Shown here in pieces: positions 35,216-55,151 of a DNA stretch of 64,000 nt. The stretch comes from Sinohyriopsis cumingii. Taxonomy: Eukaryota > Mollusca > Bivalvia > Unionida > Unionidae. A model generated the notes under the pieces. The model saw only the letters and a program-made list of their open reading frames with translations, had not been told where the DNA came from and did not search any database. The stretch spans positions 160,453,398 through 160,517,397 of the forward strand of contig CM068825.1 in NCBI GenBank assembly GCA_028554795.2, given 5' to 3'. Within the stretch, counting starts at the first letter, position 1, and every line of letters starts with the position of its first letter. A program made the position numbers and the translations under genes.

Positions 35216-35580
35216 AGTAGTGAAGGGGGATAATATAGCGACAATGGGAATTAGCATTACAGGACCCCTTGGGAACATATAGCGACAATGGAAATTTAAC
35301 ATGGAGAAAAATCGTGGGAACATATAGCGACAAGGGAAATTTAACATGGAGAAAAATCGTGGGAACATATAGCGACAAGGGAAATGAACATGGAGAAAAA
35401 TCGTGGGACTGTTGAGCGACAAGGGGATTTGAACATGGAGAAAAATCGTGGAAACATATAGCGACAAAGGAAATTAATATGGGATTTTGTTTTTAAAAAA
35501 AAAGAAAAAAAAAAGGGGGTAGGCAATGGAAAGACTATCTCTTTTCGAGAAATATGGCTGGCCCTGAAAAGGGCCTTTGG
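35216..35580. repeat. Left terminal inverted repeat with 45-bp subrepeats
   Basis: This segment is the reverse complement of 54788-55151 with only a few differences, mainly in the A/T homopolymer. Its outer part holds about five tandem ~45-bp subunits, each with gcgacaagggaaat and catggagaaaaatcgt. Its inner end carries a histone-type hairpin (35560-35575). Confidence 0.95.
35560..35575 (-). terminator. Histone-type 3' stem-loop, site 1
   Basis: On the minus strand the site reads GGCCCTTTTCAGGGCC, preceded by CCCAAA. It has a 6-bp stem with a four-nucleotide UUUC loop, as in replication-dependent histone mRNAs. A purine-rich TCTCGAAAAGAGATAG follows, as in histone downstream elements. It lies ~50 nt after the stop at 35625. 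Confidence 0.7.
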
Positions 35581-35624
35581 GTTTTCTTCTTCTTCTTCTT
35601 CTTCTTCTTCTTCTTCTTCTGCTT

Positions 35625-36009
35625 CTAATTTCTTCTTTTCCTCCACCAAGTTCTTATTTTATCTCCTACACTCTTCTTCCCTTTCTTTTTTTTCTTCTCC
35701 TCCTCTTCTTTCTTCTTCTCTTCCTCCTCTTCTTTCTTCCTCTTTTCATTTTCTTCTTCTTTTTCAATTTTTTCGTTCCATTTGCGTATTCTTATTCTTT
35801 CCTCTTCATCCTCCTTCTCCTCCTTGATCTCTTTCATGACACCACTAATCTTGTCCTTTGCTTTTCTTAAGTTATTAATTTCCATCTTTACACGATGGGG
35901 ACTATAGGAATAATGGTTCAACGAGTCTTATTAGCATCTGTTCCATTATTCCTAAGTTGTCTAAAACGTCTTGCAAGGTTTGTATTTTGTCCATTTGGTT
36001 CGACGCCAT
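35625..36009 (-). pseudogene. Coiled-coil Polinton end gene 1, frameshifted
   Basis: The ATG at 36009 (MASNQMDKIQTLQDVLDNLG) follows the shared early-type promoter by ~60 nt but stops at 35902 after 35 codons. The continuing frame, in a different phase, runs from ~35921 to 35625 and is a highly charged Glu/Lys coiled coil (KEEEEEKKKEEEEKKKKK). A single indel between about 35904 and 35930 would explain the split. Function is unknown. Its position, promoter and histone-type 3' end group it with the genes at 36443, 37252 and 53736. The purine tract may also be slippage-prone. Confidence 0.55.
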
Positions 36010-36070
36010 CTTCTTTTTATTCTTTGCAGAATGGTTTGAACAACGAACACTGTGGGTTCTTATAGTGAAA

Positions 36071-36166
36071 GCGCGGACGTGAAAGAAAACATCCCCCTAA
36101 AAACATAAAATGGATCTTACCTAGATCATGACCAAACAACGCGCGGACGTGAAGGAAAACATCCCC
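36071..36166 (-). promoter_or_regulatory. Shared promoter module of Polinton end genes, copy 1
   Basis: Two copies of gcgcggacgtgaaggaaaac (first with one change) start at 36071 and 36141 on the plus strand. Read on the minus strand they give TTCACGTCCGCGC just upstream of CACTATAA, a TATA-like box about 55 nt before the ATG at 36009. Confidence 0.65.
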
Positions 36167-36399
36167 CTACTTTTTCATTTCATATAATATAACCCAAACT
36201 ATACTCTCCACATTTGCTAAGAAACAATAAAGAAACCCATAATCTACTATTCGCACAAACATACCTTTACTCTTACAAACACAAACACACCAACACATAC
36301 CCTCACACTATCTTAAAAAAGAGTTAGTGTTTATTTTCACACTACTCTACCTACACACATTGGCAAATTAATAGTTATTTCTTTTCTAGAGTATTGGAT

Positions 36400-36415
36400 A
36401 GCCCTGAAAAGGGCT
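36400..36415 (-). terminator. Histone-type 3' stem-loop, site 2
   Basis: The minus strand reads AGCCCTTTTCAGGGCT, a 6-bp stem with UUUC loop, 27 nt beyond the stop at 36443. It is followed by CTCTAGAAAAGAAATAAC, which has a purine-rich U7-type element. Confidence 0.7.
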
Positions 36416-36442
36416 GTTTTTTTGAACTCCAGATGCAACTAT

Positions 36443-36754
36443 CTAATGATTACACCTTCCTGGCCTGGCGCCACACACGCATCTTCTTCCCCAGTCTCCT
36501 TTCACCTTTCTTCTGGTGAGCGAAGAGGGAGGATGATTCGCTTCATCACCCCAATCTTCTGTGTCGGGAATATTGAACGACATCCTCTCTTCTCTTTTCT
36601 TTTCCTCCTCTTCCCTCTGTCTTCTCTCCTCCTCTTCCTTCTTTATTCTTTCTTCTTCTATTATAGCCTCCACAGCCAGTTCATTGACCAGGCGCCTTAC
36701 ATATTCCAGATGTATCTGGAGTTCAAGAAGTTTGCTTATTCTGCTACTATTCAT
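36443..36754 (-). CDS. Coiled-coil Polinton end gene 2 (103 aa)
   Basis: The ATG at 36754 gives MNSSRISKLLELQIHLEYVR, then a Glu/Lys/Arg-rich coiled coil (~residues 28-55) and a C-terminal tail with a CVCGARPGRCNH Cys/His cluster. I recognise no family. Weak similarity of the N-terminal heptads to the product at 37252-37614 (SKLLELQIHLEYVR against SKLAKLNEAYVNLHRVR) suggests the end genes are paralogues. A TATA-like CACTATAAATT lies ~57 nt upstream next to the shared promoter motif. The stop precedes a histone-type hairpin. The longer frame to 36769 would need a TTG start. Confidence 0.6.
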   Translation of the reverse strand: MNSSRISKLLELQIHLEYVRRLVNELAVEAIIEEERIKKEEEERRQREEEEKKREERMSFNIPDTEDWGDEANHPPSSLTRRKVKGDWGRRCVCGARPGRCNH

Positions 36755-36817
36755 TCTTGTGTTGATCAATCAACAAGGGTAGCTAGACTGTCCAGCGAGT
36801 TTCAATTTATAGTGAAA

Positions 36818-36910
36818 GCGCGGACGTGAAGGAAAACATCCCCTAAAAACATAAAATGGATCTTACCTAGATCATGACCAAAAACAACAACAACGCGCGG
36901 ACCTAAAAGA
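36818..36910 (-). promoter_or_regulatory. Shared promoter module, copy 2
   Basis: gcgcggacgtgaaggaaaac starts at 36818, and a partial second copy (gcgcggacct) at 36895. Between them lies 'aaaacataaaatggatctta', which is also present in copy 1. On the minus strand the module precedes the TATA-like box of the gene at 36443-36754. Confidence 0.65.
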
Positions 36911-36949
36911 AACACTCACTCACTTTTTATGCTACCCATCACTATTTTA

Positions 36950-37206
36950 AAATTTTTTCATAAATCACTTCAATAGACTTTTTACATACGCAAAGCAATC
37001 CAATTTAACCCCAAATACACACCTCAAACACCAAAAAAGACATCATTTTAATCTACTATCCATACCAACTTACTTGATCACTTACAAACACAAACACACA
37101 AACACATACCCTCACATTTTTTAAAAAGAGTTAGTGTTTATTTTCACACTACTCTACCTACACACATTGGCAAATTGATCGTTATTTCTTTTCTAGAGTA
37201 TTGGGT
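36950..37206. repeat. Duplicated intergenic segment (pairs with 36190-36399)
   Basis: The phrases 'acaaacacaaacacac', 'aaaaagagttagtgtttatt' and 'ctacctacacacattggcaa' occur in the same order in both intervals, ending in the histone-type hairpin. The end genes appear to have multiplied together with promoter and 3' signal. Confidence 0.75.
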
Positions 37207-37222
37207 AGCCCTGAAAAGGGCT
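37207..37222 (-). terminator. Histone-type 3' stem-loop, site 3
   Basis: The minus strand reads AGCCCTTTTCAGGGCT followed directly by ACCCAA, which is the usual sequence after a histone stem-loop, and then by CTCTAGAAAAGAAATAAC. It lies 29 nt past the stop at 37252. Confidence 0.72.
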
Positions 37223-37251
37223 GTTTTTTTGTTTGCTATGGCATTCTTTTT

Positions 37252-37614
37252 TTAGTTTCTAAGAATGCGATGTCCTCTGAGGATTGACTTTCTGGCGATA
37301 GGTCTGCTTCTTCGGAAAGAGAAGAAGAACTCTTTGGTGTCGATACGACAATCGACAAAGCCTCTGTCAGCTTCAGGTTGTTGCTGCTGCTGTTGCTGTT
37401 GTTGCTGCTGTTGCTGCTGTCTCTGAAGTCTGTACTTCTCTGTCCATTCTTCTTTCTCCCTGTTCATTTCTTCTCTGAAGAGCTCTTCTATCAGGTCTTC
37501 AGTGATTTTTAACATTCTCACATTCTCTATTTCTTCTGGCTTCGGTATCAGACTGTGTCTGACCCTATGCAAATTCACGTAGGCTTCGTTGAGCTTAGCT
37601 AGTTTGGAGCACAT
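37252..37614 (-). CDS. PolyQ/coiled-coil Polinton end gene 3 (120 aa)
   Basis: The first ATG after the promoter is at 37614 (MCSKLAKLNEAYVNLHRVRH). Residues ~35-65 form an acidic-basic helix (ITEDLIEELFREEMNREKEE), followed by an uninterrupted run of 14 glutamines and a basic tail (FRRSRPIARKSILRGHR). No known family is recognised, and a nucleic-acid-binding or scaffold role is only a guess from charge. The polyQ tract recalls that of the product at 53736-54320, which shares the same kind of 3' end. The upstream extension to 37725 would run through the promoter and is rejected. Confidence 0.6.
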   Translation of the reverse strand: MCSKLAKLNEAYVNLHRVRHSLIPKPEEIENVRMLKITEDLIEELFREEMNREKEEWTEKYRLQRQQQQQQQQQQQQQQPEADRGFVDCRIDTKEFFFSFRRSRPIARKSILRGHRILRN

Positions 37615-37680
37615 CTTCGTAGGAGGATGAGTCAACAATGGATGGTTAGACTGGAAACAACCCCGGTTCTTAAAGTCAAA

Positions 37681-37705
37681 GCGCGGACGTGAAGGAAAAC
37701 ATCCC
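37681..37705 (-). promoter_or_regulatory. Shared promoter module, copy 3
   Basis: gcgcggacgtgaaggaaaac followed by atccc. On the minus strand it lies just upstream of a weak TATA-like CTTTAAG, ~70 nt before the ATG at 37614. Confidence 0.6.
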
Positions 37706-37822
37706 ACACGGTTTTCGAGCCGCAACGTTCATGAGAGGGATAGTAAGAAATGAAAGAGCATCAATCCAACATTCTTATAGCTAAACAAAAGACAAAGGCA
37801 TTTTTTTCTAAACACAACATTT

Positions 37823-37828
37823 TTTATT
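37823..37828 (-). terminator. Poly(A) signal for the protease-side transcript
   Basis: TTTATT on the plus strand is AATAAA on the minus strand, ~115 nt past the protease stop at 37944. No histone-type hairpin lies here. Confidence 0.55.
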
Positions 37829-37943
37829 CAAAAATCACTTAACACTAAACATCAACATTTCTAACATTTTTTAACAATAATCCAATACTATAACATCAAA
37901 CAATCTTTTTCTAATCACAAACATTTTTTTCTTCAAATACTAA

Positions 37944-38504
37944 CTACTTTGAACAGGGCTGACAACGTTGTGAATGAAATTGTGATTTCCACTGTTGGAA
38001 ATCATTAGGCCATTGATGGACACTACGTTTCCTAGCTTGAGACAAAAGATAAGCATAATGGTCACAAAACCATCGATCTACTTTCACATCGTTTCTAGCA
38101 GAAGAACGAGGATCAAAATGAGTCACTAAATGTTCTAAGGAATAGCCCAGGCTGCGATGATGCAGAAAATACACGCAGTACTGTCCACACACCAAAGAAT
38201 CTGTGCCTTGTAATTTCACGTTATTGAATCGGGTGGTTTGAGCATTTCTTCTCATAAAGTCGATGATATCGTCTTCCAAAGGGGGCAATCCGTACGAATC
38301 GAAATATTCCACACATCCTTCTTGAGGAAAGTAGACGGCTACCCAGTGGGTTCCTGGGAGATGACTGTCGTCTGTGTTGATCACGTAAGCTTGATGGTCT
38401 TTAGGTTTGCGATGAGGGAGTTCATCTTTAGCACAGACGACAGGATTCCAAGAAGCCGTATACGAACTGTGGTTCAAAAGGTAATAAAGTTCCCAGGTAT
38501 CCAT
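37944..38504 (-). CDS. PRO: Adenain-like cysteine protease (Polinton PRO)
   Basis: The 186-residue product has the adenovirus-type protease layout: GTHWVAVYF with His53, EYFDSYG with Asp69, and CGQYCVYFLHH with Gln108 and Cys110 as oxyanion and nucleophile residues. Family members are ~200 aa and process capsid precursors during virion maturation. Start and length fit, and no residue of the triad is missing. It is followed by an AATAAA site and preceded within ~27 nt by the gene at 38532, in the usual late-gene block. A C-terminal Cys-containing tail (FHSQRCQPCSK) is unremarkable. Confidence 0.92.
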   Translation of the reverse strand: MDTWELYYLLNHSSYTASWNPVVCAKDELPHRKPKDHQAYVINTDDSHLPGTHWVAVYFPQEGCVEYFDSYGLPPLEDDIIDFMRRNAQTTRFNNVKLQGTDSLVCGQYCVYFLHHRSLGYSLEHLVTHFDPRSSARNDVKVDRWFCDHYAYLLSQARKRSVHQWPNDFQQWKSQFHSQRCQPCSK

Positions 38505-38531
38505 TGTTTTGTGTTTTTTTCTTCTTCTTCT

Positions 38532-39017
38532 TCACAGGTAATAATAAGTCGTCAATTCGATCCTGACTTTTTGCTTGAAAATGTCTGACGAATAAACGGT
38601 TATTCGTTCTGTTTCCTCACTCTGATTCAGGAGAGCTTCGATACGATGGATCTCTTGACTGGTTAATGGTGGACAAGAATGTTCACGCAAGTCTTTATAC
38701 CACTGGTGCAACACGTCTTTGTTCGAGATGAGACTCCAAGCTTCGTCCAGATACTCGTCCAATTTTTCTTCTTGACTTAACATCAGGCATTTATCGTGTT
38801 GAATTTGACTGGGATGATCGTTTTGACATCCATAACAATTTTTCTTGATCAATTCCGTCATTTTTTCGACCAAGTGTTTGGCAAAACAGGAGACTAAATG
38901 GGCTTCTTGTTCTGGCCATCTCGACTTCATCATGATCACTTCTTCTTTTTCCACGGTCTCCTCACATTCCATCTCCAAAGTTTCTCCACTAGGTAAAGAG
39001 GGACAACAGTCTTCCAT
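38532..39017 (-). CDS. Conserved Polinton protein with Cys/His motif (161 aa)
   Basis: A 161-residue acidic product starts at ATG 39017 (MEDCCPSLPSGETLEMECEE). The centre carries KKNCYGCQNDHPSQIQHDKC, a Cys/His pattern (C-x2-C-x3-H...H-x2-C) that could bind zinc. I recall a similar CYGC...HPSQ...H motif in proteins found next to the capsid gene in other Polintons, with unknown role. It lies 5 nt downstream of the capsid gene stop, so the two are probably co-transcribed. Structural, chaperone or regulatory roles are all possible. Confidence 0.7.
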   Translation of the reverse strand: MEDCCPSLPSGETLEMECEETVEKEEVIMMKSRWPEQEAHLVSCFAKHLVEKMTELIKKNCYGCQNDHPSQIQHDKCLMLSQEEKLDEYLDEAWSLISNKDVLHQWYKDLREHSCPPLTSQEIHRIEALLNQSEETERITVYSSDIFKQKVRIELTTYYYL

Positions 39018-39022
39018 GGTTT

Positions 39023-40321
39023 CTAGTAATCTAGGATGACTTCTCTCAAACTGTTGATTTCTATGGTATTATCGAATTCTGCATACAGGATGACGTTCAC
39101 TGTCTCTTTCAGTGGTTCTGCAAACTGAAGTTCCACACGAATCTGGCCTGATTTTATAGGGTGGAAATGTCCCTCGTCGCTGCCTTGGTCTGGAGTGAAA
39201 TCAAAAGCCCACAAAGCATAGCCTCCTGCGTAATCCTCGTACGTAATACCGTGACTGGTGTTGGTTCCTAACTGTCCGGTGGCTTCGTACAGGGACAAGT
39301 ACGATCTCAAGTAATTCTTCTCTTTAAAGTCAGGTTCGAAAGGTCGGGTACACAAGGTTTTGCCATCGCGACTGACTTCGATTTTCTTCACGTTAAAGTG
39401 TTGAAAGTTGAAAGGATTTTGAGCGAAGGCTCCGTTGAAGGCTGAATTCGAGACCATACCAAGGATCAAACGTTTGGGTAGCTGTCCTTGGAACAGATGA
39501 TCTTCGATCATGGAATGATGTCCAACGGGAATGGTGAACGTTTTCACTTCCACGCGTCGTATGGGATACTTGGCGGTCGTTCTGCTCAACGTTTGACTGA
39601 TGTCGTTACCTACTTTGGGTAACACTTCCACGCGTTGTACGTAGAGTTTGGCCTCTTCGATTTTGCTTTTAGGAGCCTTAGCATCCTCAGCCAACAAATG
39701 GAAAGCGGTACTGCTACGATTCAGTCTCAAGCGGACATTGACTCCGTTTAGCAAATATTTCTCTTGCAACCACATGTCCAAATGCAAACGATCCATCAGT
39801 TCTAAACTCTTCTTATCTAAGATTTTGAGTTCTCTTTGCTCAAAGCCGCTATTGGTTCCATCTACAAGGTCGAACTTGCCCGCTTCGTCAGGTTCCCACA
39901 GCACACAAGCATTGAGATGGGTATCCTTGGCATCTATTCCGTACGTCAAGAGATTTTCCAGGTAGGCACGGTAAGGGTAAGTATCCATGCTGCTGCTGAC
40001 CGGTTTGTTATTCAAGTACAAGTCCACTCCACTAAACAAGGAATGCATGAAATTGTTGACGGGAGCTATATTCTCAGTGTCATCTACTGCACCATCATCC
40101 TTATCTAGAACTTTGACTTTCAAGTACAAGTAACTGCTATTCAGATCGATGTAATCTTCGGGCTGTCCTTTGATTTCGAACTCGATGGGAGCTGAGGCTG
40201 TCAATGAGGAGACGGGATGAAATTCCACCCATTGAGATTCTTGCATCGTCATCATGGTGGGGGGCATGGCAAACAGATCCAGTTCCGTCTTGGAACAAGC
40301 GCAAGACTCTCGGTGCATCAT
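39023..40321 (-). CDS. MCP: Polinton major capsid protein (double jelly-roll)
   Basis: The 432-residue product has the features of the Polinton hexon-type protein: SQWVEFHPVSSLTASAPIEF near the start, LNSSYLYLKVKVLDKD, MHSLFSGVDLYLNNKPVSSS, TYPYRAYLENLLTYG, then TAKYPIRRVEVKTFTIPVG, NPFNFQHFNVKKI and a terminal YAEFDNTIEINSLREVILDY. The double jelly-roll assignment rests on established work on Polinton capsids. The frame is uninterrupted. The first in-frame ATGs are at 40321 and 40318, and the longer frame to 40339 would need TTG. The stop of the pVI-like gene is 14 nt upstream. Confidence 0.88.
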   Translation of the reverse strand: MMHRESCACSKTELDLFAMPPTMMTMQESQWVEFHPVSSLTASAPIEFEIKGQPEDYIDLNSSYLYLKVKVLDKDDGAVDDTENIAPVNNFMHSLFSGVDLYLNNKPVSSSMDTYPYRAYLENLLTYGIDAKDTHLNACVLWEPDEAGKFDLVDGTNSGFEQRELKILDKKSLELMDRLHLDMWLQEKYLLNGVNVRLRLNRSSTAFHLLAEDAKAPKSKIEEAKLYVQRVEVLPKVGNDISQTLSRTTAKYPIRRVEVKTFTIPVGHHSMIEDHLFQGQLPKRLILGMVSNSAFNGAFAQNPFNFQHFNVKKIEVSRDGKTLCTRPFEPDFKEKNYLRSYLSLYEATGQLGTNTSHGITYEDYAGGYALWAFDFTPDQGSDEGHFHPIKSGQIRVELQFAEPLKETVNVILYAEFDNTIEINSLREVILDY

Positions 40322-40335
40322 TTTTTCTCTGTGCC

Positions 40336-40752: not shown

Positions 40753-40759
40753 GACTTAC

Positions 40760-42094: not shown

Positions 42095-42099
42095 GATGG

Positions 42100-43212
42100 T
42101 CACTTCTTCTTTTTATAGTCGATGACTTGCGAAGCGTCGATCCAAGAATCGAAACTGGGTGGATATCCTTTCCAACGTACTTTGACTTCTTTGATACGTC
42201 GTTTGCCCACTTTACGGGTTCTGCGTTCGAGAATGCTTTCGATGTCGTACACGTCGTCTTCTTTTTTGGTCACACGTTGTAACTCGGGCAAATAAAACGT
42301 TCCTTTGAGCACTTCTCCGTTCATGTCTTCCAATTTATAGACGGCAGGATGACGGCCATGCACTCGTCCAGTGACGCGAAACAATTCGGTCGTCCAGTTA
42401 GGTAAGTAACCTTTGTCGAAAGTGCGTTTGGTTTTGCCAATGCGCACCCAATCTCCTACGGTCAACTCTCCACTTTTCTTGGGGACAGCCCTCGTCGGGG
42501 ACGTACCAAACAGGCGCTCAAACACGAGCACTTCGTTGTCGGGAGTCACGTCTTGCGGGGCACGTCCGATGCTTCGATGGTAAGATTGGTTGTACGCTTG
42601 CACCAGGTGCGGTAAGATGTCGATGTACTTCAGAGTGTGGTGATGCGTAAAATATTTCCACATGCGTTCTTTCAAAGTGCGTTGAAAACGTTCCACGATG
42701 CTGGCTTTGGTTTCGGGATTCTCGGTGGTAAAAAAATGAATGTCACGTTTCTTTAATTCTTTTTGGAAAGCTTGGTTCAGAAATTCGGTGCCTTTGTCCG
42801 TTTGCCATCGAAGAGGGTGACGACCGCTTTGTTTCAACACTCGTTGCAGGGCTCGCACTAACTCGCTGCTGGATTTGGAAGTCAAGGGCACGACCCAGGC
42901 AAATTTGGAAAAGACGTCGATGACACAAAACAAATATTTGTAGCCGCGATTGTAGCTGGCCAAATGAGAGACATCGGCTAAATCGGCTTGCCATTGATGA
43001 TCGATGCCTTCCACTCGGGTGGGACTTCTGGCAAACTTGCGTCGAATGGGTTTGTGTAAAGTGTAGGTAGCTTGTTCTTGTAACCATCGTTGCACTTGAG
43101 GTAAACGGAGACTTTTCAGTCGAGTTTTGGCAGCACGATACAATTTTTGAACTCCTGCGTAACCTGCAGGATGTGAGGGATCGTAGTAAATGCTGGCTAA
43201 GACTTTTTCCAT
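42100..43212 (-). CDS. INT: Polinton integrase with C-terminal chromodomain
   Basis: The 370-residue protein carries a retroviral-type DDE core: WQADLADVSH with Asp77, RWQTDKGTEF with Asp139, and SIVERFQRTL with Glu174, the Asp-Glu spacing being 34 residues. It lacks an obvious HHCC finger at the N-terminus, where a short HPAGYAGVQKLY segment stands. Residues ~335-365 (VKVRWKGYPPSFDSWIDASQ) form a chromodomain, which in related integrases steers insertion toward methylated histones. It presumably inserted the element, giving the 6-bp duplication. The frame is intact. Confidence 0.95.
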   Translation of the reverse strand: MEKVLASIYYDPSHPAGYAGVQKLYRAAKTRLKSLRLPQVQRWLQEQATYTLHKPIRRKFARSPTRVEGIDHQWQADLADVSHLASYNRGYKYLFCVIDVFSKFAWVVPLTSKSSSELVRALQRVLKQSGRHPLRWQTDKGTEFLNQAFQKELKKRDIHFFTTENPETKASIVERFQRTLKERMWKYFTHHHTLKYIDILPHLVQAYNQSYHRSIGRAPQDVTPDNEVLVFERLFGTSPTRAVPKKSGELTVGDWVRIGKTKRTFDKGYLPNWTTELFRVTGRVHGRHPAVYKLEDMNGEVLKGTFYLPELQRVTKKEDDVYDIESILERRTRKVGKRRIKEVKVRWKGYPPSFDSWIDASQVIDYKKKK

Positions 43213-45436: not shown

Positions 45437-46192
45437 TTATAGATTTTTTGATGGGGAGTGAAATGAAGTCGAGGACGGAGACGTGTACAGGACAGGCCCT
45501 CCGTCTTGGCACCAGTGGTGAAACAAGTGGGTACGAAATCGCAAATCCTCGGGAGTGGTAGGTTTCAAATCGACGAGTAAATAGGCGTGTGGCGTTTGAG
45601 TGGCATCGTCGTACGCCTGAGTCAGCCAAGGCGTTCCTAACTGTTTGGCTAAGACTTGCACTTGCGATTTATCTCGAGGGCTTTTAAACAAGACCACGTA
45701 ATGTGCATTGAGACTGATGGTGCGATGGGCTTTACTTTGTTGAAACAAATTTTGGGTGATGTAAACGACACTGGCATTACGGTGATGCCCTTTGCGCGTG
45801 AACCACAATTTAATTTCTTCTTCGTCTTCTCCTAACATGTCGTCGAAAATGACCAAATGGGTTTGACGGGCGTCAGAGACGATGCCGTCGTCTTCTTTAG
45901 GAATGCCTTCCACAAACACGATGGAATCGCCTTGACTTTCTCGCAAAAGGCTGTACGCGGATTGCCACTCTTTGTAACACCACACGATCCGTTGAGGTGG
46001 CCGATCGATCAAATGATGTTTATGTTCGATCAAACGTTTGACGAATTCGGTTTTGCCTGAACCGCTAGGTCCAGCAATGAGCATGTTAAAGGGATGGCGA
46101 AGATACAAAGCCTCCCAACTGGCACGATCTAAGTGTTCGTCGATGACTTTGACAGTAGAGGGAGAGGGAGCAGAGACAGCAGAGGTAGCCAT
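45437..46192 (-). CDS. ATP: Genome-packaging ATPase (FtsK/HerA type)
   Basis: The 251-residue protein has Walker A AGPSGSGKTEF (~40-50) and Walker B HLVIFDDM (~113-120). It then has VYITQNLFQQ (a sensor-like motif) and a closing region with DLKPTTPEDLRFRT. This is the A32/FtsK-type ATPase of Polintons and related viruses, which pumps genome into the capsid. The start at 46192 sits in a strong CACCATGG context, so the 13 extra residues up to 46231 are rejected. The catalytic motifs and frame are intact. Confidence 0.93.
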   Translation of the reverse strand: MATSAVSAPSPSTVKVIDEHLDRASWEALYLRHPFNMLIAGPSGSGKTEFVKRLIEHKHHLIDRPPQRIVWCYKEWQSAYSLLRESQGDSIVFVEGIPKEDDGIVSDARQTHLVIFDDMLGEDEEEIKLWFTRKGHHRNASVVYITQNLFQQSKAHRTISLNAHYVVLFKSPRDKSQVQVLAKQLGTPWLTQAYDDATQTPHAYLLVDLKPTTPEDLRFRTHLFHHWCQDGGPVLYTSPSSTSFHSPSKNL

Positions 46193-47972: not shown

Positions 47973-48000
47973 GAACAGATTATTATGGTAAGAAGTTACT

Positions 48001-48744
48001 TCAATGTCTCGGTCCCACTAAAGGTAAGTAATGACAATTCGGTGACCATCGAGCATGTTCAACGTAGGCCGAATCTTGCGGTTCCCAGTGGTGAAGTGAC
48101 ACACCGCAACTGAAGCACTTGACTTTATCTCCTTCGCCCAAGTAGAAAAATCCGGCTCTGGCTAATTCTTCGGGGGTCGGTCCTCCCAGATACTTAGGCC
48201 ATTTTCCTTTGAACGATTGAAGACGATTTTCAAAGTCGCAGTATTCCGACAAACGCACAGGGAACGAATATTCGTCTTTCACAGGTTCGTTTCGATGAGG
48301 ATTGAGTGACATGGGCAGGAGTTTGCTCAGGGCTGGATGACATCCGTAGGGGGGTAGACGTGAAGGTGAACATTCCCCTTTAAAACGAAACCCAGTAAAA
48401 TGTCCAAGAGGACGAGCGGCATCACTTTCGCATCCCACAGGTTTGACACGCACAGCATCGCTTTCCATGATAGGGGTAGGGACACTAAAGTTCCCATGAT
48501 GCTTTACGGCATCGCTCAGGTCACAACGTACAGCATCGTACACATCGCAAGGCTCACAATCGCACTCGTCTGCAAACTCCGTTACGCAATTACAATGGTA
48601 ACCACATGGACAATCGCAGTTTCCTTCCGGACATTTTCCGTCGCAATGCCTGGGTCTTATCCATCCAGTATTAGTCACACTAGAGGAACATACAACTTTT
48701 TTACAATCCCCAAACTGGAACGATGTCTCTTTCAAAGTATTCAT
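48001..48744 (-). CDS. BIR-domain (IAP-like) protein with Cys-rich N-terminus
   Basis: The 247-residue product ends in one BIR domain (~169-240): YCDFENRLQSF, ELARAGFFYLGEGDKVKCFS and HARWSPNCHYL, with zinc ligands Cys210, Cys213, His230 and Cys237 all present. BIR proteins bind caspases or signalling adaptors and block cell death, so an anti-apoptotic accessory role is likely. No RING is present. The N-terminal ~75 residues have 15 cysteines (CDGKCPEGNCDCPCGYHCNC), possibly a second metal-binding module, and a middle region repeats SDAV/SDAA. The first residues MNTL resemble those of the F-box-like genes, hinting at shared upstream sequence. Confidence 0.85.
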   Translation of the reverse strand: MNTLKETSFQFGDCKKVVCSSSVTNTGWIRPRHCDGKCPEGNCDCPCGYHCNCVTEFADECDCEPCDVYDAVRCDLSDAVKHHGNFSVPTPIMESDAVRVKPVGCESDAARPLGHFTGFRFKGECSPSRLPPYGCHPALSKLLPMSLNPHRNEPVKDEYSFPVRLSEYCDFENRLQSFKGKWPKYLGGPTPEELARAGFFYLGEGDKVKCFSCGVSLHHWEPQDSAYVEHARWSPNCHYLPLVGPRH

Positions 48745-48776
48745 CTTGTTCGCTCGGTCTTGGTAGTCCCAATGAA

Positions 48777-51700
48777 CTATCGATCTTGCCTAGGGTTCCT
48801 TTTTATATACAGACCAATACCGACGTGACCGTACGGTAAGGTAAAGTGATTGGGAAGTCGCACTCGCTTCTGGTATACAATTTGATAGACTTTTTCCAAG
48901 GGTCGACTGACGATGTGGTGAGTGGGTAAACGTACAATCTTGTTAGGTTGGTGAGTGGTCACTTTAAAGTTTCCATCCTCTCCCGATTGCAAGGCTTCTT
49001 TCAATACCCCAAAGTTGACCACTCGACTGGTACGATAATTCAGAGTCAGTCCTTTCACTTTGCATGTCGTGTGCACTTCTCCTTGTTTGTCCCGGTATTC
49101 GTAGCCGTAATTTTTGGGACCACCACTGACGAAACTTAGAATCTTGTCGTCGGGATGCTCGTCTGTCCAGGCTCCTAAACGGTCTCCTTCGATGTTAGGG
49201 TGATGTTGAATCGGGTGATGGATGTAAATGCAACTGTCCGTGTCAAAGTACAGGACGCGTTCTTCTAACAGTTCTAAAGCTTCGTACAATTTTAAGCGAG
49301 CATGGGCTGTCACGTAAGCCGCAATGATGACATTTCCAAAAGGGTCGTCTTGTACAAAGTCCAGATCTTCTTCGTAATTGACCAAGATCAAATTCTCTCG
49401 AACGACGTCCACGTGTTTCATGTATTTGGTTTTGTCGTGAATCATCTGGAAGTAGCCGGAAGGTTCTGTCAAATATTCTGTCTTGGGTAAACACGGTCGT
49501 TGTGCCATTTTACCCCACAAGCAATTTAACATCACTTTGGCAAACGATCGCCTGCCTTCGTTTTTCTCGATGTGGTCTAAAGTGATGCCTTCTTGTTCGT
49601 AGTATTTCTCTTTGAATTTTATTTGGTCTTCGGGAGTGTGACACCAGGACGGATAGCCGCTGGCTTCTTGCTTCAGTTTCAAAAAGGCATCCACGTAGTC
49701 TGCGAAAATGCCTTTCTGAGTAGGGTCACCCTTGTAGTATTGTTGTGTCTTGGGAAAGTGGCAAATTTCGTACACTTCTAACAGTTGGTATCCCATGTCC
49801 AGAGCTTTGAACAATTCTACGCTGACCCAGGTTCCCGTCAAGGCCCGTTCTTCCTGGCTGTGCTGACAAGGTTGGTCTTGGTTGCACGTTTCGGCACAAG
49901 TACGGCACAAGGGAAACATCAGTTTGCCTTGACAATGGTGAGGTAAGACGGGATGGTATAGGTTCGTGGGAGGCAAAACTTTACACTTGATCAAGCCTTC
50001 GTATTGTCGAATGTTTTTCAGGTCGATGTGTTCCGTCAACAATTGCGGGTGCCCTACAGGAAAGCGACAATATTTGCACACGTAGGGATACAGCGAACAC
50101 ACGTCCAAGTATTTGATTTCTTCTCCTTTCTCTTCGTCGGCTTGGTACAGCAAACAGGTGGCATTGGTCCTTCCTCCGTACAAACTATCCCTCGGGTTCA
50201 GCGGGTCCATGAACTGGTAACTTTCCACGAGGCATTTAAACTCGGGATCGGTTTTCATACGGTGATCGTACTCGTGTTCCCACATTTCCACCACTTGGTA
50301 TCCTTCCTGTTCTAACTTTAGGCGCCGCTGACAAGTGTCCTGGTACAAGTCTTCCATGGTTCGTTGCAAAAACTGATTTTTAGTGCCATGGTCAGGGTAA
50401 CAGACGGGACATCCGTGAAATAAGCAACCGTTAAACTCGTACACGATCTTGGGGTTTTCTAAGTCCCAGCCATCGACCGAATACGTTCCGATGGTCTTTT
50501 CGCCCCCTCCGTTGCGGGCATGTTGAATCCACTTGTCTTCCTTGTCGCACAAGTAATGTAACCAACGTAGGGCTTTGACCGAGTATTGACGTTTGACAAA
50601 GTGGGTCGTTTGAGGACTGATGACAGCCACGCTGTTTTCAGGCATGAATCGTTGTCGATACACTAAGGAACACGCTTTGGCAATGGTGCAAGCTTCTTTC
50701 AAAGGATCGACCCCTCCGTGTTCCATGAACAGTTCTCGAAATTTTCCACAGCAACGTCGTAAAATGTCCACGTCGGAACGACAATACTTTAGCATTTCTT
50801 CCTGAAAGTCGAAAGGGTCCGAGGCGTGAGCCTGGTACCAAGCGTAGAAATCTTCTCGTTGTTCGGTACGCATGTTGTCGGGGTCGTAATAGTGAACCTC
50901 AGGCAAATGGGGTAGAACGGCGTGTTGATTGGCTTCCGTATTGAAAAAGTGAGGAAAGTACCCTTTAGCCATTTCTGTCATTCCAAACGTTTTAGGCATT
51001 CGACTCAAAGGCATGGCCAAATAGCTCATCGAATCTTTAAACTGTACTTGTCCCACTTGCATGAAAATGATTTTGGCTCCGTTCAAAGTCACTTTAGGAC
51101 GCTCGGTGCCTTGTTCCGTATAGTATCTGAGAAGAAATTGTCCATCGTATCCGGAGAAATTGTGAGCCATCACCGTGGCATGACGATGACAATCTCCGTA
51201 AAGTTCGATGTCCTCTTGGCTCCACGTCTTCTCGACGGGGTCTAAGACCCATTGGGCAAAATCGGCTAGCGTGTTCGGTCCCCGAAAGATTTTTTCACGC
51301 CCTCTAGGAATCTTGCTACAGTGAGGGCAATGACTGAAGATAGGTTCTTGAATGCACTTCTCGCACGCTCGATGAGCCACGCAGAAATTAGGAATGTGAA
51401 TGCCGGTCTCTTGCATGCATTCGAAATCGAAAAAGATGAAATTGCCTTTCTTCTTGTGACCATCCTCTTTCTCTGGTGGGGGTTGGTATTTTTGCACGTA
51501 GCATTGGTGTTCCAAGTCCACGATGTGGTGACAAATGTGACATTTTTTCTTTCCTGAACATACGTGTGCCTTGGTATTATTGGTACGTATGACTTGTTCA
51601 CACGTAGGGCACAATCTCAGAAGTTGACAAGCACATTTCTTCTGTGAACCTTGCGTTTTCAGATGTTGTTGGTAACAGGTAGGGCTAACAAACGTGCGCA

Positions 51701-52835
51701 GACAAGTTGAACAAGGCACTGGTTCTTCGCTCAGACAGGGTGAAGAGGCCAAACATCCTGAGCATTTCGATCCACAATGCTTGTGTTGCTCTCGATTATT
51801 ATAACCATGGTCACATTTCTCACAGTAATAACCGTATCCCAGGAATCCGGTGATAGTGGTAATGGTATCGAAATGGTCATCGTGATAATAGACATGAATG
51901 TATTTTCCCTCCTTAAAGTCTTGCCCTCGAAACAACAAAGACCCGCGCACTTCTTGAGGGTGCACTTTCAAGGTGTAACGTGGAGCTAGGGCATCTTGCA
52001 ATTTTTGCATCTCAGGAATGCCACAGGGTGTGTCTTTGGACAGGCCAGCTTGTTGCAACAGGAGTTCTGCTTCGTTTCGTTGTTTGGCTCGATCGGATCG
52101 TTGAATAGTTTTCCAGGCTCTTTTCCATTGTACCGTGTCGTTCTTGTTGGCATAGGTTCGTCCCACCACGATGGCACGGGCTAAACACATCTGGTCATGA
52201 GGATTGTGAATTTGGACAAGGCTACGCTTAATGCTGCGAAGGTCGTTCACCAATAACATCTTTTTGCGTCCTGTCCCTTGAGGAGGAGAGACGTGGGTCA
52301 TGTCCAATGTGGCTTTTCCATCGGTGATGTCAAACTGGTCATTAGATTGTTGCACGTGTTGAATCTTGTCCATGACTTTGGAAGCGGTCAATTCTGCAGG
52401 GGTGCTAAACTCGATCCAAACAAGGGATTTCAAACCGTCGTGTTGTATGGAAAGTCTCAAGCGGTCGTCTTCTTTGGGTTGACATTGTCGCTTGAGTGCA
52501 GTGAGCAGAGAATCCCACACTCCGGTGATGAACCCTTCTGCTTTCTCTAACGGTACTTCGGACTTGAAATCTTTAAACTTCACCGTGTATTTGTAAGCCG
52601 TGGTTCTAAATTTTCCAGAGGAGCGCTTTTCCGTCTCTCGAATGGAATAGTATTTTTCAGGGTTGACTAAGGGTGGTGAACTTGGTTTAGAGGTTTCAAA
52701 TTCTGGTTCACTCATGTCCTCTTCAAAATCACTGGCATGAATTTGTGCCAAGATTTCAGCCCTTGTTCGAGGCGATAGATCACGTTTCTGCCTCTTACTT
52801 TCTTCTTTCTTCTCGAATGAATGGGATCGTTTCAT
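48777..52835 (-). CDS. POLB: Protein-primed family B DNA polymerase
   Basis: The uninterrupted 1352-residue frame begins MKRSHSFEKKEESKRQKRDL. An N-terminal domain precedes a Cys/His-rich region (~337-446, CEKCDHGYNN, CSTCLRTFVSPTCYQQHL, CHICHHIVDLEHQC). The 3'-5' exonuclease follows: FIFFDFECMQ (Asp470, Glu472), MAHNFSGYDGQFLL and YCRSDVDILR. Polymerase motifs are LDVCSLYPYV (A), KVMLNCLWGKMAQ (B) and YFDTDSCIY (C, Asp1199-type acidic pair near 1198-1201). This is the protein-primed replicase of Polintons. The start is the first ATG after a minus-strand TATA-like box at ~52880. No catalytic residue is lost. Confidence 0.95.
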   Translation of the reverse strand: MKRSHSFEKKEESKRQKRDLSPRTRAEILAQIHASDFEEDMSEPEFETSKPSSPPLVNPEKYYSIRETEKRSSGKFRTTAYKYTVKFKDFKSEVPLEKAEGFITGVWDSLLTALKRQCQPKEDDRLRLSIQHDGLKSLVWIEFSTPAELTASKVMDKIQHVQQSNDQFDITDGKATLDMTHVSPPQGTGRKKMLLVNDLRSIKRSLVQIHNPHDQMCLARAIVVGRTYANKNDTVQWKRAWKTIQRSDRAKQRNEAELLLQQAGLSKDTPCGIPEMQKLQDALAPRYTLKVHPQEVRGSLLFRGQDFKEGKYIHVYYHDDHFDTITTITGFLGYGYYCEKCDHGYNNREQHKHCGSKCSGCLASSPCLSEEPVPCSTCLRTFVSPTCYQQHLKTQGSQKKCACQLLRLCPTCEQVIRTNNTKAHVCSGKKKCHICHHIVDLEHQCYVQKYQPPPEKEDGHKKKGNFIFFDFECMQETGIHIPNFCVAHRACEKCIQEPIFSHCPHCSKIPRGREKIFRGPNTLADFAQWVLDPVEKTWSQEDIELYGDCHRHATVMAHNFSGYDGQFLLRYYTEQGTERPKVTLNGAKIIFMQVGQVQFKDSMSYLAMPLSRMPKTFGMTEMAKGYFPHFFNTEANQHAVLPHLPEVHYYDPDNMRTEQREDFYAWYQAHASDPFDFQEEMLKYCRSDVDILRRCCGKFRELFMEHGGVDPLKEACTIAKACSLVYRQRFMPENSVAVISPQTTHFVKRQYSVKALRWLHYLCDKEDKWIQHARNGGGEKTIGTYSVDGWDLENPKIVYEFNGCLFHGCPVCYPDHGTKNQFLQRTMEDLYQDTCQRRLKLEQEGYQVVEMWEHEYDHRMKTDPEFKCLVESYQFMDPLNPRDSLYGGRTNATCLLYQADEEKGEEIKYLDVCSLYPYVCKYCRFPVGHPQLLTEHIDLKNIRQYEGLIKCKVLPPTNLYHPVLPHHCQGKLMFPLCRTCAETCNQDQPCQHSQEERALTGTWVSVELFKALDMGYQLLEVYEICHFPKTQQYYKGDPTQKGIFADYVDAFLKLKQEASGYPSWCHTPEDQIKFKEKYYEQEGITLDHIEKNEGRRSFAKVMLNCLWGKMAQRPCLPKTEYLTEPSGYFQMIHDKTKYMKHVDVVRENLILVNYEEDLDFVQDDPFGNVIIAAYVTAHARLKLYEALELLEERVLYFDTDSCIYIHHPIQHHPNIEGDRLGAWTDEHPDDKILSFVSGGPKNYGYEYRDKQGEVHTTCKVKGLTLNYRTSRVVNFGVLKEALQSGEDGNFKVTTHQPNKIVRLPTHHIVSRPLEKVYQIVYQKRVRLPNHFTLPYGHVGIGLYIKRNPRQDR

Positions 52836-52969
52836 CTTGAAAACAAAAAGTCAAATGACTCAAGTTCAAACACCATGAGCTACTTTATAGTAATAGCAGA
52901 CCAGCGTATATAAAAGGGTGTGTGTCTTATCCTTTCACTATTCATTTCACTCTCAAGCCGAGCACAACG
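52836..52969. promoter_or_regulatory. Divergent promoter of POLB and the zinc-knuckle gene
   Basis: The 134-bp gap holds a plus-strand TATA box (tatataaaag, ~52908), a minus-strand TATA-like box (tataaag, ~52880) and a perfect AP-1 site TGACTCA at 52856-52862. It is the only spacer between divergent genes other than 54321-54539. Confidence 0.65.
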
Positions 52970-53444
52970 ATGGAAGAGACTAACCAGATGGAACGTTTCG
53001 TCAGAGCTTTGCGAGGGGTCATTAGAAAATTCTCTTCAGACCAGCCTACGGACTACTCTCCTTCCTTTCGAGATAAAAGTCAAGATACTTGCTATATCTG
53101 TCAGAAGAAAGGGCATTGGTCTTCAGAGTGTCCAGACCGTCAAAAAAAAAACAAAAACAGGGACTAAAAAAGACAAAAGTCAAGATACCTGTTATTATTG
53201 TAAAGAAAAAGGACATTGGTCTCCAGATTGCCCAAAAAAGAAACAAGAGGAGTCAGAAGAAAAGAAGGATTCTTCAGAAGAAGAGAGGGATTCTTCGGAA
53301 GAAGAGAGGGATTCTTCAGAGGAAGAAGAGGAAGAAAAAAGACAATTCTATTTACAAGAGGCAAAGAAACAGGAGAAGAAGAAAAGAAGAAGGGAAGAAA
53401 ATGAGGAAAAGACGGTGAAGAAATTCAAAAAACAGAGAGACTAA
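52970..53444 (+). pseudogene. Two-zinc-knuckle protein with a homopolymer frameshift
   Basis: ATG 52970 (MEETNQMERFVRALRGVIRK) lies ~55 nt after the TATA box and encodes one CCHC knuckle (CYICQKKGHWSSECP) before stopping at 53167. A second frame to 53444 carries a second knuckle (CYYCKEKGHWSPDCP), then three acidic DSSEEER-type repeats and a Lys/Arg-rich tail. The frames switch at a run of ten A starting at 53142, so loss of one A, +1 recoding or transcript slippage would join them. CCHC knuckles bind single-stranded nucleic acid. An AATAAA follows at 53530. The regular acidic repeats suggest recent internal expansion. Confidence 0.6.
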
Positions 53445-53529
53445 ACAAGGAGAAAGAAGAAGTCAATGAACTTTTTATTAAAGTGTTGTGTTGTGAATTG
53501 TGAATTGGATTGTAAAAAATGGAGAAAAG

Positions 53530-53535
53530 AATAAA
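53530..53535 (+). terminator. Poly(A) signal of the zinc-knuckle gene
   Basis: AATAAA lies 86 nt past the stop at 53444. No histone-type hairpin occurs on this strand here. Confidence 0.55.
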
Positions 53536-53693
53536 TGAATGATATAAGGTAAGTGTCTTTGAGTTTTGATTTTAAAATAAGAACGTACACTCAAGCACTC
53601 ATACACAGACACGTACTATAAGGGTAAAATGGGTGGGGTTTTTTTTGAGTTATTGGCAAATTGAAATTGTATTTCTTTTCGAGAAATGTGGGT

Positions 53694-53709
53694 GGCCCTG
53701 AAAAGGGCC
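53694..53709 (-). terminator. Histone-type 3' stem-loop, site 4
   Basis: The minus strand reads GGCCCTTTTCAGGGCC followed by ACCCACATTTCTCGAAAAGA. Both the stem-loop and the trailing ACCCA match the metazoan histone consensus, and the purine-rich element begins 14 nt later. It lies 26 nt past the stop at 53736. Confidence 0.78.
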
Positions 53710-53735
53710 TTTTTCTTCATGGTGAAGGGGTGAGT

Positions 53736-54320
53736 TTAAGCAATCAACTTTAACTGCCTTATGCCTTTGCCACGGCCAAGGCCTACTTCTGGACTGCGTA
53801 ATGTTGATGATGATGATAATGATTGGGTTGAAATCACTAAGGGTGGTACGGTAGGCTTAGTCACAGGGTTGACGTGTTTAGCTCGGGAAGGTCGTATTCT
53901 CTTCGGTCGTGATAAAGAAGTCTGATACATTTGTTTTAGACTTCTTAACTCCGCTAAAATGTCCAACAGTACCGTGACCGTTTGATTTTCACCCTCTTGT
54001 TTCTTTGCTGCTACTTCTTCTTGCTGTTGTTGCTGTTGTTTTTTTCTTACCTCTTCTTCTTGTTGCTGTTGCTGTAGGAGAAAAGTCTGTTCCGCTTCCT
54101 TTTGTCGTTGTATAAATTTCTCCAATTCTTCTTTCTGTCTCTGTCTAAAATTCTCCACTTGCGGTAATGAAGAAGGTAACGAAGGTTCCGGAACAAATTC
54201 TTGCGAGGAGAGAAAATCCACAAAATCCCAATTCACCTCTTCTGAAAGTAAGTCCGAGTTCCCTTGGGCAGTCTCCCCTGCTGGTGCACCCCAATGGATC
54301 GTTTTCTGAGTTTCCGTCAT
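53736..54320 (-). CDS. PolyQ coiled-coil Polinton end gene 4 (194 aa)
   Basis: The start is ATG 54320 (MTETQKTIHWGAPAGETAQG). An acidic N-terminus (SEEVNWDFVDFLSSQEFVPE) may be an interaction or activation segment. Residues ~60-115 form a Gln/Glu/Lys-rich coiled coil with QQQQQ runs. A second helix (TVTVLLDILAELRSLKQMYQ) precedes a basic tail (RPKRIRPSRAKHVNP). No known family is recognised. It shares the polyQ-coil character, position at the element end and histone-type 3' end with the genes at 35.6-37.6 kb. Its TATA box (~54369, minus) and a CRE site lie upstream. Confidence 0.62.
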   Translation of the reverse strand: MTETQKTIHWGAPAGETAQGNSDLLSEEVNWDFVDFLSSQEFVPEPSLPSSLPQVENFRQRQKEELEKFIQRQKEAEQTFLLQQQQQEEEVRKKQQQQQQEEVAAKKQEGENQTVTVLLDILAELRSLKQMYQTSLSRPKRIRPSRAKHVNPVTKPTVPPLVISTQSLSSSSTLRSPEVGLGRGKGIRQLKLIA

Positions 54321-54539
54321 GTTGAATCACTGTCGCATGGATTGACTACACACAAGCACTAGCGAATCTATATAGACTACGTGACGTCACAGACTGCTCT
54401 CTTCGGATTGGATGCGAGCTGACTGAATTCTGTAACGCGTGTTCGGATTGGTGAATGAACTCAATCCGTTTCAATCCTTTCTGTCCCTATAAATAAGCGC
54501 AGTTCACTGCATTGATTCGCCTATTGTCGGAGCCTCAAC
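54321..54539. promoter_or_regulatory. Divergent promoter with CRE and CCAAT-like sites
   Basis: A minus-strand TATA (CTATATAGAT) near 54370 serves the gene at 54320. A plus-strand TATA (ctataaataag) near 54487 serves the small gene at 54540. Between them are a perfect CRE (TGACGTCA, 54382-54389) and two ggattgg (inverted CCAAT) motifs near 54405 and 54443. Confidence 0.6.
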
Positions 54540-54770
54540 ATGTGGACAGACGTTGAATCTTCAACCCTTGTGTCAACAATGATGTTCAGGACGGACATGC
54601 TTATGTATGTCCGATCCAAGTGGACCGTTGTCCACAGGACCAGCAGCAGCCTGTGGATAAGAAGAGTCTATATAGAGAGACAAGGTTGCCTCAAGAGGAC
54701 TCTGATGTATGGCCCTGCTGTAAGACGAAGTTTGAGGACAAGAAGATGTCGCAAATGCCCTTTATGTTAA
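54540..54770 (+). CDS. Small Arg/Cys-rich end gene 5 (76 aa, possibly frameshifted)
   Basis: ATG 54540 follows a TATA box by ~50 nt and encodes a basic product ending RRSLRTRRCRKCPLC, with its stop 22 nt before a histone-type hairpin. An overlapping frame (54557-54781, stop also just before the hairpin) has a more protein-like composition with Cys pairs (VCPIQVDRCPQDQQQ, VWPCCKTKFEDKK) but no early ATG. The true product may therefore start in the first frame and continue in the second after an indel. Its function is unknown. The transcript layout (TATA, short leader, short ORF, hairpin) is exactly histone-gene-like. Confidence 0.4.
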   Translation: MWTDVESSTLVSTMMFRTDMLMYVRSKWTVVHRTSSSLWIRRVYIERQGCLKRTLMYGPAVRRSLRTRRCRKCPLC

Positions 54771-54787
54771 GGGCATATTAACATAAA

Positions 54788-55151
54788 CCAAAGGCCCTTT
54801 TCAGGGCCAGCCATATTTCTCGAAAAGAGATAGTCTTTCCATTGCCTACCCCTTTTTTTTTTTTTTTTTTTTAAAAAAAAAATCCCATGTTAATTTCCTT
54901 TGTCGCTATATGTTCCCACGATTTTTCTCCATGTTCAAATCCCCTTGTCGCTCAACAGTCCCACGATTTTTTTCCATGTTCATTTCCCTTGTCGCTATAT
55001 GTTCCCACAATTTTTCTCCATGTTAAATTTCCCTTGTCGCTATATGTTCCCACGATTTTTCTCCATGTTAAATTTCCATTGTCGCTATATGTTCCCAAGG
55101 GGTCCTGTAATGCTAATTCCCATTGTCGCTATATTATCCCCCTTCACTACT
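54788..55151. repeat. Right terminal inverted repeat with 45-bp subrepeats
   Basis: This is the inverted partner of 35216-35580. It contains about five ~45-bp subunits (tgtcgctatatgttccca, cgatttttctccatgtt) and ends ...cccccttcactact before the target duplication. The poly-T/poly-A tract at ~54850-54880 is where the two TIRs differ most. Confidence 0.95.
54793..54808 (+). terminator. Histone-type 3' stem-loop, site 5
   Basis: The plus strand reads CCAAAGGCCCTTTTCAGGGC then CAGCCA. The CCAAA lead, 6-bp stem and UUUC loop match the histone consensus. TCTCGAAAAGAGATAG follows, with the purine element at 54823-54830. Confidence 0.75.

Follow-up and report, generated by a model that had tools for sequence, protein, structure and literature searches.

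Histone-type 3′ signals behind the end genes of a Polinton in the mollusc Sinohyriopsis cumingii

The 64,000-nt stretch of Sinohyriopsis cumingii DNA analysed here (the window) contains a mobile element whose small terminal genes are followed by hairpins of the kind that ends metazoan histone mRNAs. Does this element make use of the histone 3′-end processing of its host for genes of its own? We approached this question through the identity of the element, the position and score of the hairpins, their likeness to the histone genes of the host and their fate among the copies of the element in the same genome.

The element and its end genes

The element occupies positions 35216..55151 (19,936 bp), as delimited by its ends, domains, a target-site duplication of 6 bp (CCTGTT) and terminal inverted repeats (TIRs). 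The left TIR (35216..35588) and the right TIR (54780..55151) have at their inner edges the stem-loops of the genes here called A and E, respectively. Between the repeats lie a family B DNA polymerase (PolB) of the organellar/viral type (48777..52835, minus strand; DNA_pol_B_2, 143 bits), an rve integrase with a chromodomain (42100..43212, minus; rve 53.7 bits, Chromo 32.2 bits), a Pox_A32-type packaging ATPase (45437..46192, minus; 32.5 bits against a cut-off of 22.8) and a major capsid protein (MCP) with a double jelly-roll fold (39023..40321, minus). The latter was recognized by a fold search, which matched it to the capsid proteins of iridovirus, PBCV-1, Sputnik and mavirus; its profile gave no sequence match among the PDB sequences. 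With these genes, its TIRs and its 6-bp duplication, the element is a Polinton/Maverick. It also has a protease-like gene (37944..38504, minus), a candidate for the adenovirus type on a weak Peptidase_C5 match below the cut-off (16.3 against 21.3 bits). Animal Polinton/Maverick elements are adintovirus-like. A viral contig collection, searched with four queries (ATPase, capsid, integrase and gene D) and with two DNA patterns, yielded no relative and no match, and the capsid protein query found nothing useful among plasmid and phage records. A BIR-domain (inhibitor-of-apoptosis) gene (48001..48744, minus) was identified by domain search, and a zinc-knuckle gene (52970..53535, plus; ORF 52970-53167 and the sequence after it) lies on the other strand.

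What sets this element apart from the known Polinton/Maverick pattern is that its end genes, A to E, have histone-type 3′ ends. Poly(A) signals are found at other genes: the zinc-knuckle gene, which has no stem-loop, has AATAAA at 53530-53535, and the protease-like gene has AATAAA 115 nt past its stop codon, followed by a GU-rich stretch. Gene A (35625..36008, minus) encodes a charged protein; its frame is interrupted in the present copy, and open-frame copies are present elsewhere in the host genome. Gene B (36443..36754, minus; 103 aa) matches no Pfam family above cut-off, and gene C (37252..37614, minus) is an ORF for a glutamine-rich protein of 120 aa. The latter shows a weak PHROG match to phrog_332, ‘head-tail adaptor’ (E 8.7e-5, over a stretch that extends into the glutamine run), which we put down to a composition effect. 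Gene D (53736..54320, minus; 194 aa) is predicted to form a single long helix (residues 52-135; mean pLDDT 67.3) and has 20 relatives in the database; its pN/pS is 0.39 among 18 intact copies, 11 of the 29 copies being left uncounted for want of a qualifying open frame. Gene E (54540..54770, plus) is an ORF for an arginine-rich protein of 76 aa. None of the five is a histone, as no Pfam histone family was matched at E values up to 0.1 (gene A being entered as ORF 35625-35885 only). TATA boxes stand 52-57 nt upstream of the ATG of genes A, B, D and E (56 nt in A, 52 nt in E), which speaks for our reading below. Gene C yielded none, however, and PolB and the zinc-knuckle gene have such boxes without having a hairpin; both facts weigh against any argument from the TATA boxes.

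Position and score of the five signals

A pattern search returned five hairpins with a 6-bp stem and a UUUC loop, on the strands and at the coordinates given by a sequence-only reading of the window. The signal of gene A (35535..35580, minus) comprises a stem-loop at 35560-35575, AGCCA and GAAAAGAG at +14 (Rfam Histone3 score 35.6 bits), and that of gene E (54788..54833, plus; stem-loop 54793-54808; 35.6 bits) is its TIR copy. The signals of gene B (36375..36420, minus; stem-loop 36400-36415, with ATCCA; 29.1 bits) and gene C (37182..37227, minus; stem-loop 37207-37222, with ACCCA; 31.0 bits) have the stem AGCCC/GGGCU, and the signal of gene D (53670..53714, minus; stem-loop 53694-53709) has the cleavage-site motif ACCCA and the highest score, 41.2 bits. 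Chance hairpins are ruled out by both nulls. With up to 3 mismatches the pattern gave 5 matches, against a mean of 0.78 in 100 shuffles, none of which reached 5; a stricter stem rule found exactly these five in the 64 kb against 0.035 expected (200 first-order Markov sequences, maximum 1).

That the hairpins lie 20-50 nt past stop codons, as had been proposed, is borne out by stop-to-stem distances of 49, 27, 29, 26 and 22 nt (A to E), all on the sense strand; only 2.6% of the strand-positions of the element are situated 20-50 nt past the stop of an ORF of at least 75 aa, or 3.5% for ORFs of at least 60 aa. The purine element expected about 14 nt past the stem is present at all five sites as GAAAAG starting at +14. 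Consensus-like flanking motifs are likewise present, at four sites rather than the three first counted: CCAAA precedes the stems of A and E, and ACCCA follows those of C and D. By descent, however, the five loci amount to three lineages, because A and E are TIR copies of one stretch and B and C a duplicated cassette, with about 100 nt 3′ of the stem in common.

The covariance-model check that had been suggested was run, and the Rfam Histone3 model (RF00032; gathering score 34 bits) accepts the hairpins, three of them (A, D and E) above gathering and two below it (E values 1.3e-4 for B and 2.5e-5 for C). The first stem pair is G-C in A, D and E and A-U in B and C, which we count as a compensatory change. 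Overall, the likeness to metazoan histone mRNA 3′ ends, the substrates of SLBP and the U7 snRNP, extends over the 6-bp stem, the 4-nt loop, the U-A closing pair, the ACCCA-type cleavage site, the purine element and the short 3′ UTR. The difference is that the signals found here follow non-histone end genes of a transposon or virus (compare PMC6303110, 2018).

Since two of the five hairpins form the inner edges of the TIRs, one could imagine that the palindrome acts at the level of the DNA, in replication, in packaging or as a site of the terminal repeat, and resembles the histone stem-loop by chance. This we regard as highly improbable: sites B, C and D lie outside the repeats, which rules out a palindrome confined to the TIRs; the hairpin orientation always follows that of the gene; the asymmetric purine element is always on the RNA-sense side; and even with the stem omitted the match to host histone 3′ ends persists (see below).

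Match to the histone genes of the host

In the histone unit examined in the mollusc host, all five genes (H1, H2A, H2B, H3 and H4) end with the same kind of hairpin and purine element. The stem is located 28 nt past the stop codon in H3 (GGCCCUUUUUAGGGCC), 27 nt in H4 (GGCCCUUUUUAGGGCC), 34 nt in H2B (GGCCCUUUUCAGGGCC), 35 nt in H2A (GGCCCUUUUAAGGGCC) and 38 nt in H1 (GGUCCUUUUCAGGACC). The 16-mer of H2B is identical to a Polinton hairpin, the GGCCC/GGGCC stem occurs in four of the five host genes, and GAAAAG at +14/15 in all of them. The Polinton thus has the purine element of the histone genes of its host, an indirect argument that this element would pair with host U7. A first pair A-U, as in stems B and C, is found in none of the five, which counts against our reading.

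The likeness extends beyond the hairpin. Using stems A, C and D, we placed the 60 nt past each stem, the stem itself omitted, along a 10-kb host histone stretch (19,880 placements). For A and D the best placements fall after the host H2B, H3 and H2A (offset by one) stems, with 31-33 of 60 positions matching against a mean of 16; for C the best falls after the H2A stem (33/60). With the H2B end of the host, the likeness of the Polinton block runs over 57-68 nt. As for the processing factors, Rfam and pattern searches found no convincing host U7 gene and a Pfam search found no host SLBP, both family searches being insensitive, with silent controls. The U7 pattern had 23 matches in the host genome against 42 for its reversed control, and the best of the 18 that were scored reached 21.0 bits, where the gathering score is 34.

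Conservation among copies and proposed processing

Two exact variants of the signal occur 13,559 and 19,306 times in the host genome, and their reversed controls not at all. The expectation that related elements keep the hairpins holds for the copies in the same genome and fails for four distant loci of other hosts, mostly truncated, which have core genes in common with the element and yielded neither a histone-type signal nor a match to genes A-E. In four elements picked by way of the MCP gene, the signal is present at each of the eight places inspected, and the gene C copies adjoining two MCP-chosen elements are 91.7 and 97.2% identical. Among 94 Polinton sites from 48 loci (2 sites without gene-type assignment), all six pairs are standard in 81, AAAAGAR is present at +15/16 in 87 and ACCCA in 76; these loci were picked by the Histone3 model, so their conservation is biased upward. 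Site sampling covered 16 of 20 planned sites. We saw no second capsid family in the host genome: the oyster capsid query led to two fetched pieces of the same family, and the Escarpia-MAG query to 96 rows, 43-46% identical to it, of which the two inspected belong to the same family as well.

These patterns bear on whether the signal is used. A host histone 3′ end could have been picked up by an end gene and then copied unused, the transcripts being polyadenylated at a downstream AATAAA. The resemblance to the H2B end and the common descent of the signal copies agree with such a passenger, as do the AATAAA motifs 65 nt past the stem in B and C and 215 nt past it in D, which make polyadenylation further on possible. 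We nevertheless consider it unlikely, as no AATAAA occurs within 300 nt past the A and E stems, the signal stands just past the stop in genes of differing coding sequence, the compensatory first pair is kept in the 19,306 exact copies, and the stem, ACCCA and AAAAGA are retained while the spacer just upstream of the stem diverges. In the copies of D, identity is 0.81-1.00 at the stem-loop positions and 1.00 in AAAAGA, against 0.06-0.44 at the six positions 6-11 nt upstream of the stem. Counting against this argument, the gene D coding sequence is equally conserved (three of its five bins reach 0.95-0.96), and in type B the stretch 60-80 nt further on reaches 0.95, against 0.94 for the stem.

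The same AATAAA motifs in B, C and D could serve a dual use, in which dividing cells would make histone-type ends and resting cells polyadenylated ones. The precedent is human H2AC18, where a poly(A) signal lies close to the histone-type one and where, according to passages of PMC9756948, the transcript is processed either way. However, H2AC18 is a histone gene, and its poly(A) signal and HDE overlap, whereas the Polinton AATAAA stands clear of the HDE, and A and E lack one in the range given above. We regard dual use as possible though rather doubtful; it is compatible with processing by the histone pathway, and the odds of the two overlap.

Our preferred reading, to which we give a probability of about 0.8, is that this Polinton lineage carries the histone 3′-end module of its mollusc host after the stops of its end genes and has it processed by the host SLBP and U7. 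The module, a block of about 45-60 nt that comprises stem-loop, cleavage site and U7-type purine element and stands directly past the stop codons, would have been duplicated along with the end genes and via the terminal repeats. Host SLBP would bind the hairpin and the host U7 snRNP would base-pair with GAAAAG; the histone cleavage complex, which contains CPSF73, would then cut about 5 nt past the stem. Most likely, then, the mRNAs of genes A-E are non-polyadenylated and limited to S phase, being made and translated mainly in that phase and destroyed afterwards, and the signal probably ties the end genes to host DNA replication; both the S-phase limitation and the lack of poly(A) are deduced from the known histone pathway. 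What the sequences themselves show is the signal with its position, its likeness to the histone genes of the host and its retention across copies in the genome; we infer that the module was captured from a host histone gene and that the benefit would be expression of the end genes while the host DNA is being copied.

As far as could be found, histone-type 3′ ends have no earlier description on Polinton genes. A bracovirus-encoded histone H4 (PMC12819152) is comparable as a virus-derived element touching the host histone system, but its contribution is a histone protein, whereas the Polinton has an mRNA 3′-end signal on non-histone genes. If our reading is correct, a capsid-encoding mobile element would be a natural second user of the histone 3′-end pathway, for unrelated genes, and a DNA virus or transposon could time its genes to S phase through a borrowed host RNA signal; the very many variants in one genome represent a natural experiment on the sequence limits of SLBP/U7 recognition. 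More tentatively, the end genes might form an S-phase regulon through the captured module, with signals that outnumber those of the host histone genes and may compete for SLBP and U7 or draw the active element to histone locus bodies. The Polinton would have spread in the host genome to the order of ten thousand copies, and the two exact variants together account for 32,865 signal copies, against 662 first-look candidates for host core-histone genes.

Stem-loops of the Polinton end genes

The Polinton spans 35216-55151 on a 171-Mb contig of the 2.9-Gb assembly, with CCTGTT flanking both ends and terminal inverted repeats of ~370 bp each. Pfam matches in the element comprise a DNA_pol_B_2 polymerase, an rve integrase with chromodomain, a Pox_A32 ATPase and a BIR protein; the Peptidase_C5 match of a protease-like gene lies below cut-off. 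The 432-aa protein encoded at 39023-40321 matched no Pfam family and is assigned as capsid protein by its predicted fold (mean pLDDT 83.7), which resembles the double jelly-roll capsid proteins of iridovirus, PBCV-1, Sputnik and mavirus (best E 1.4e-16). The BIR-domain (inhibitor-of-apoptosis) gene (48001-48744) adjoins PolB.

The sequence-only reading had placed five histone-type stem-loops behind small genes at both ends of the element, here called A (35560-35575), B (36400-36415), C (37207-37222) and D (53694-53709) on the minus strand and E (54793-54808) on the plus strand. All five were recovered at the same places, far above chance, each in sense to its gene with the stop 22-49 nt upstream; positions 20-50 nt past the stop of an ORF of at least 75 aa make up 2.6% of the element's strand-positions. 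The Rfam Histone3 model (gathering score 34) scores D at 41.2 bits and A and E at 35.6 each, with C (31.0) and B (29.1) below the gathering score. Judged by sequence, the five hairpins are three lineages: those of A and E belong to one stretch present in both terminal repeats, of which the hairpin forms the inner edge, and B and C are one duplicated cassette. The first stem pair is A-U in B and C and G-C in A, D and E. The purine element reported downstream is likewise present, as GAAAAG at +14 or +15 at all five sites. A second weak hairpin is predicted around the purine element of D (53670-53690); by eye, A and E are able to form one and B and C apparently not.

The same signal in host histone genes

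The host histone genes are held in tandem units of ~8.3 kb. In one such unit (L083) the hairpin follows the stop by 28 (H3), 27 (H4), 34 (H2B), 35 (H2A) and 38 nt (H1), scores 35.0-39.4 bits, has a GGCCC/GGGCC stem in four of the five genes and is followed in all five by GAAAAG at +14 or +15. The H2B 16-mer is identical to the hairpin of Polinton A, D and E. Two further loci (L084, L085) carry the same hairpins at H3, H4, H2B and H2A; the H2B frame of L084 has an early stop.

In a BLAST comparison of the element ends with the histone unit, the signal blocks gave the best matches, one of 68 nt (79%, E 1.6e-10) and one of 57 nt (82%, E 4.9e-10), and the target was the H2B end each time; simple repeats were among the remainder. 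For a test independent of the stem, only the 60 nt downstream of it were taken, from A, C and D, and moved step by step along either strand of a 10-kb histone stretch. The three best placements of A, and the three tied best of D, fall after H2B, H3 and H2A (H2A offset by one), and the best placement of C falls after H2A. The likeness extends beyond the purine element, to a shared motif ~31-42 nt past the stem: AATTTGCCA at +31/32 in Polinton B, C and D (~53650-53666) versus AATTTTGCCA at +32 in L083 H2A. Among the 120 relatives listed for the host H1, the named organisms are molluscs, chiefly bivalves, plus one bacterial MAG (Sedimenticola), whose match is probably host contamination; this identifies the host as a mollusc, probably of the bivalves.

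Conservation among copies and distant elements

In a whole-genome Histone3 search, 75 of the first-look candidates were scored, all over cut-off (34.5-45.6 bits); one of 14 control genomes gave a match, below cut-off. Forty-eight of these places, none of them with a histone word, yielded 94 hairpins when up to two mismatches were accepted (33 E, 29 D, 17 A, 13 B and 2 without gene type). All six standard pairs are kept in 81 and at least one is broken in 13; AAAAGAR stands at +15 or +16 in 87 and is absent in 7; ACCCA follows the stem in 76. Stem-loops of the four types have mean pairwise identities of 0.94-0.99 and flanks of 0.02-0.97, the high flank values coming from the gene D coding sequence, the region 60-80 nt on in type B (0.95) and the 8 nt preceding the stem in type E (0.97). 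Among D copies, stem-loop positions show 0.81-1.00 identity and AAAAGA 1.00, the six positions lying 6-11 nt upstream of the stem drop to 0.06-0.44, and much of the remaining neighbourhood is well conserved too. Because these loci had been picked by the Histone3 model, four elements were chosen by their capsid gene instead. Here too the signal was kept in related elements of the same genome, at 8/8 places: three hairpins each in two elements and, in the other two, the hairpin of gene C, sought where it was predicted to lie.

Exact genome copies, dead ones included, number 13,559 for GGCCC/GGGCC followed by ACCCA and 19,306 for AGCCC/GGGCT followed by ACCC, the reversed patterns giving 0 each; all 16 sites of the former sampled from the first 100 on one contig (C1) are gene D ends. 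By these counts the family is very abundant, on the order of 10,000 copies. An internal stop occurs in 3 of 96 scored host-genome matches to an Escarpia-MAG capsid query. At ~30.3-31.5 Mb of contig C16, ten capsid-gene matches each carry one in-frame TAG, with 7/9 gaps of ~80 or 160 kb, probably a tandem segmental array carrying a Polinton.

In four distant Polinton loci from bacterial MAG contigs (capsid 28-43% identical) core genes match, whereas neither genes A-E nor the Histone3 model found a match. Since several of these loci are truncated or degenerate, the comparison only suggests that end genes and signal are a lineage-specific gain. For one gene D relative from the databases (P0133), reading beyond the usual stop gives an end of WPISGPPTSLEKRYY plus a few more residues, which fits, as weak evidence, a hairpin and purine element kept in another sample.

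Putative processing and the end genes

The best reading of these sequences is that host SLBP/U7 would process the end-gene mRNAs. According to PMC7026596, an AAAGAG purine core pairs with CUCUUU of U7; A and E have AAAGAG, and B-D AAAGAA. Cleavage 5 and 7 nt past the stem, at ACCCA and ACCCACA, is described in PMC6303110, and this sequence is present in D. The host U7 gene, searched by family model and pattern, and the SLBP gene, by family search, were not found; the controls of both family searches were silent, so absence is not implied, and host histone genes with the same ending indicate that the machinery exists. Among the open-access titles and abstract openings listed in literature searches, none describes histone-type 3′ ends on Polinton genes.

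Genes A-E match no Pfam family over its cut-off. The frame of gene A (35625-36008) is interrupted in the window copy and open in copies elsewhere in the genome. Gene D has 20 database relatives and a predicted structure of one long helix, the remainder being of low confidence. Its pN/pS of 0.39 (18 intact copies, each against the window copy) suggests that copy differences are mostly of the purifying-selection kind; stop-to-stem distance is 19-27 nt in 16 of these and 79 and 143 nt in the other two. A TATA box lies 52-57 nt upstream of the ATG in genes A, B, D and E (none in C by the rule used), and also before PolB (54 nt) and the zinc-knuckle gene (63 nt). A promoter cassette with CACGTCCGCGCTTT immediately before the TATA region is common to genes A, B and C (~36060-36105, 36806-36850 and upstream of 37614, respectively). 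The protease-like and zinc-knuckle genes are without hairpin and have AATAAA followed by GU-rich sequence, so that both types of 3′ end appear to be in use within the element. AATAAA also occurs 65 nt past the stem in B and C and 215 nt past it in D.
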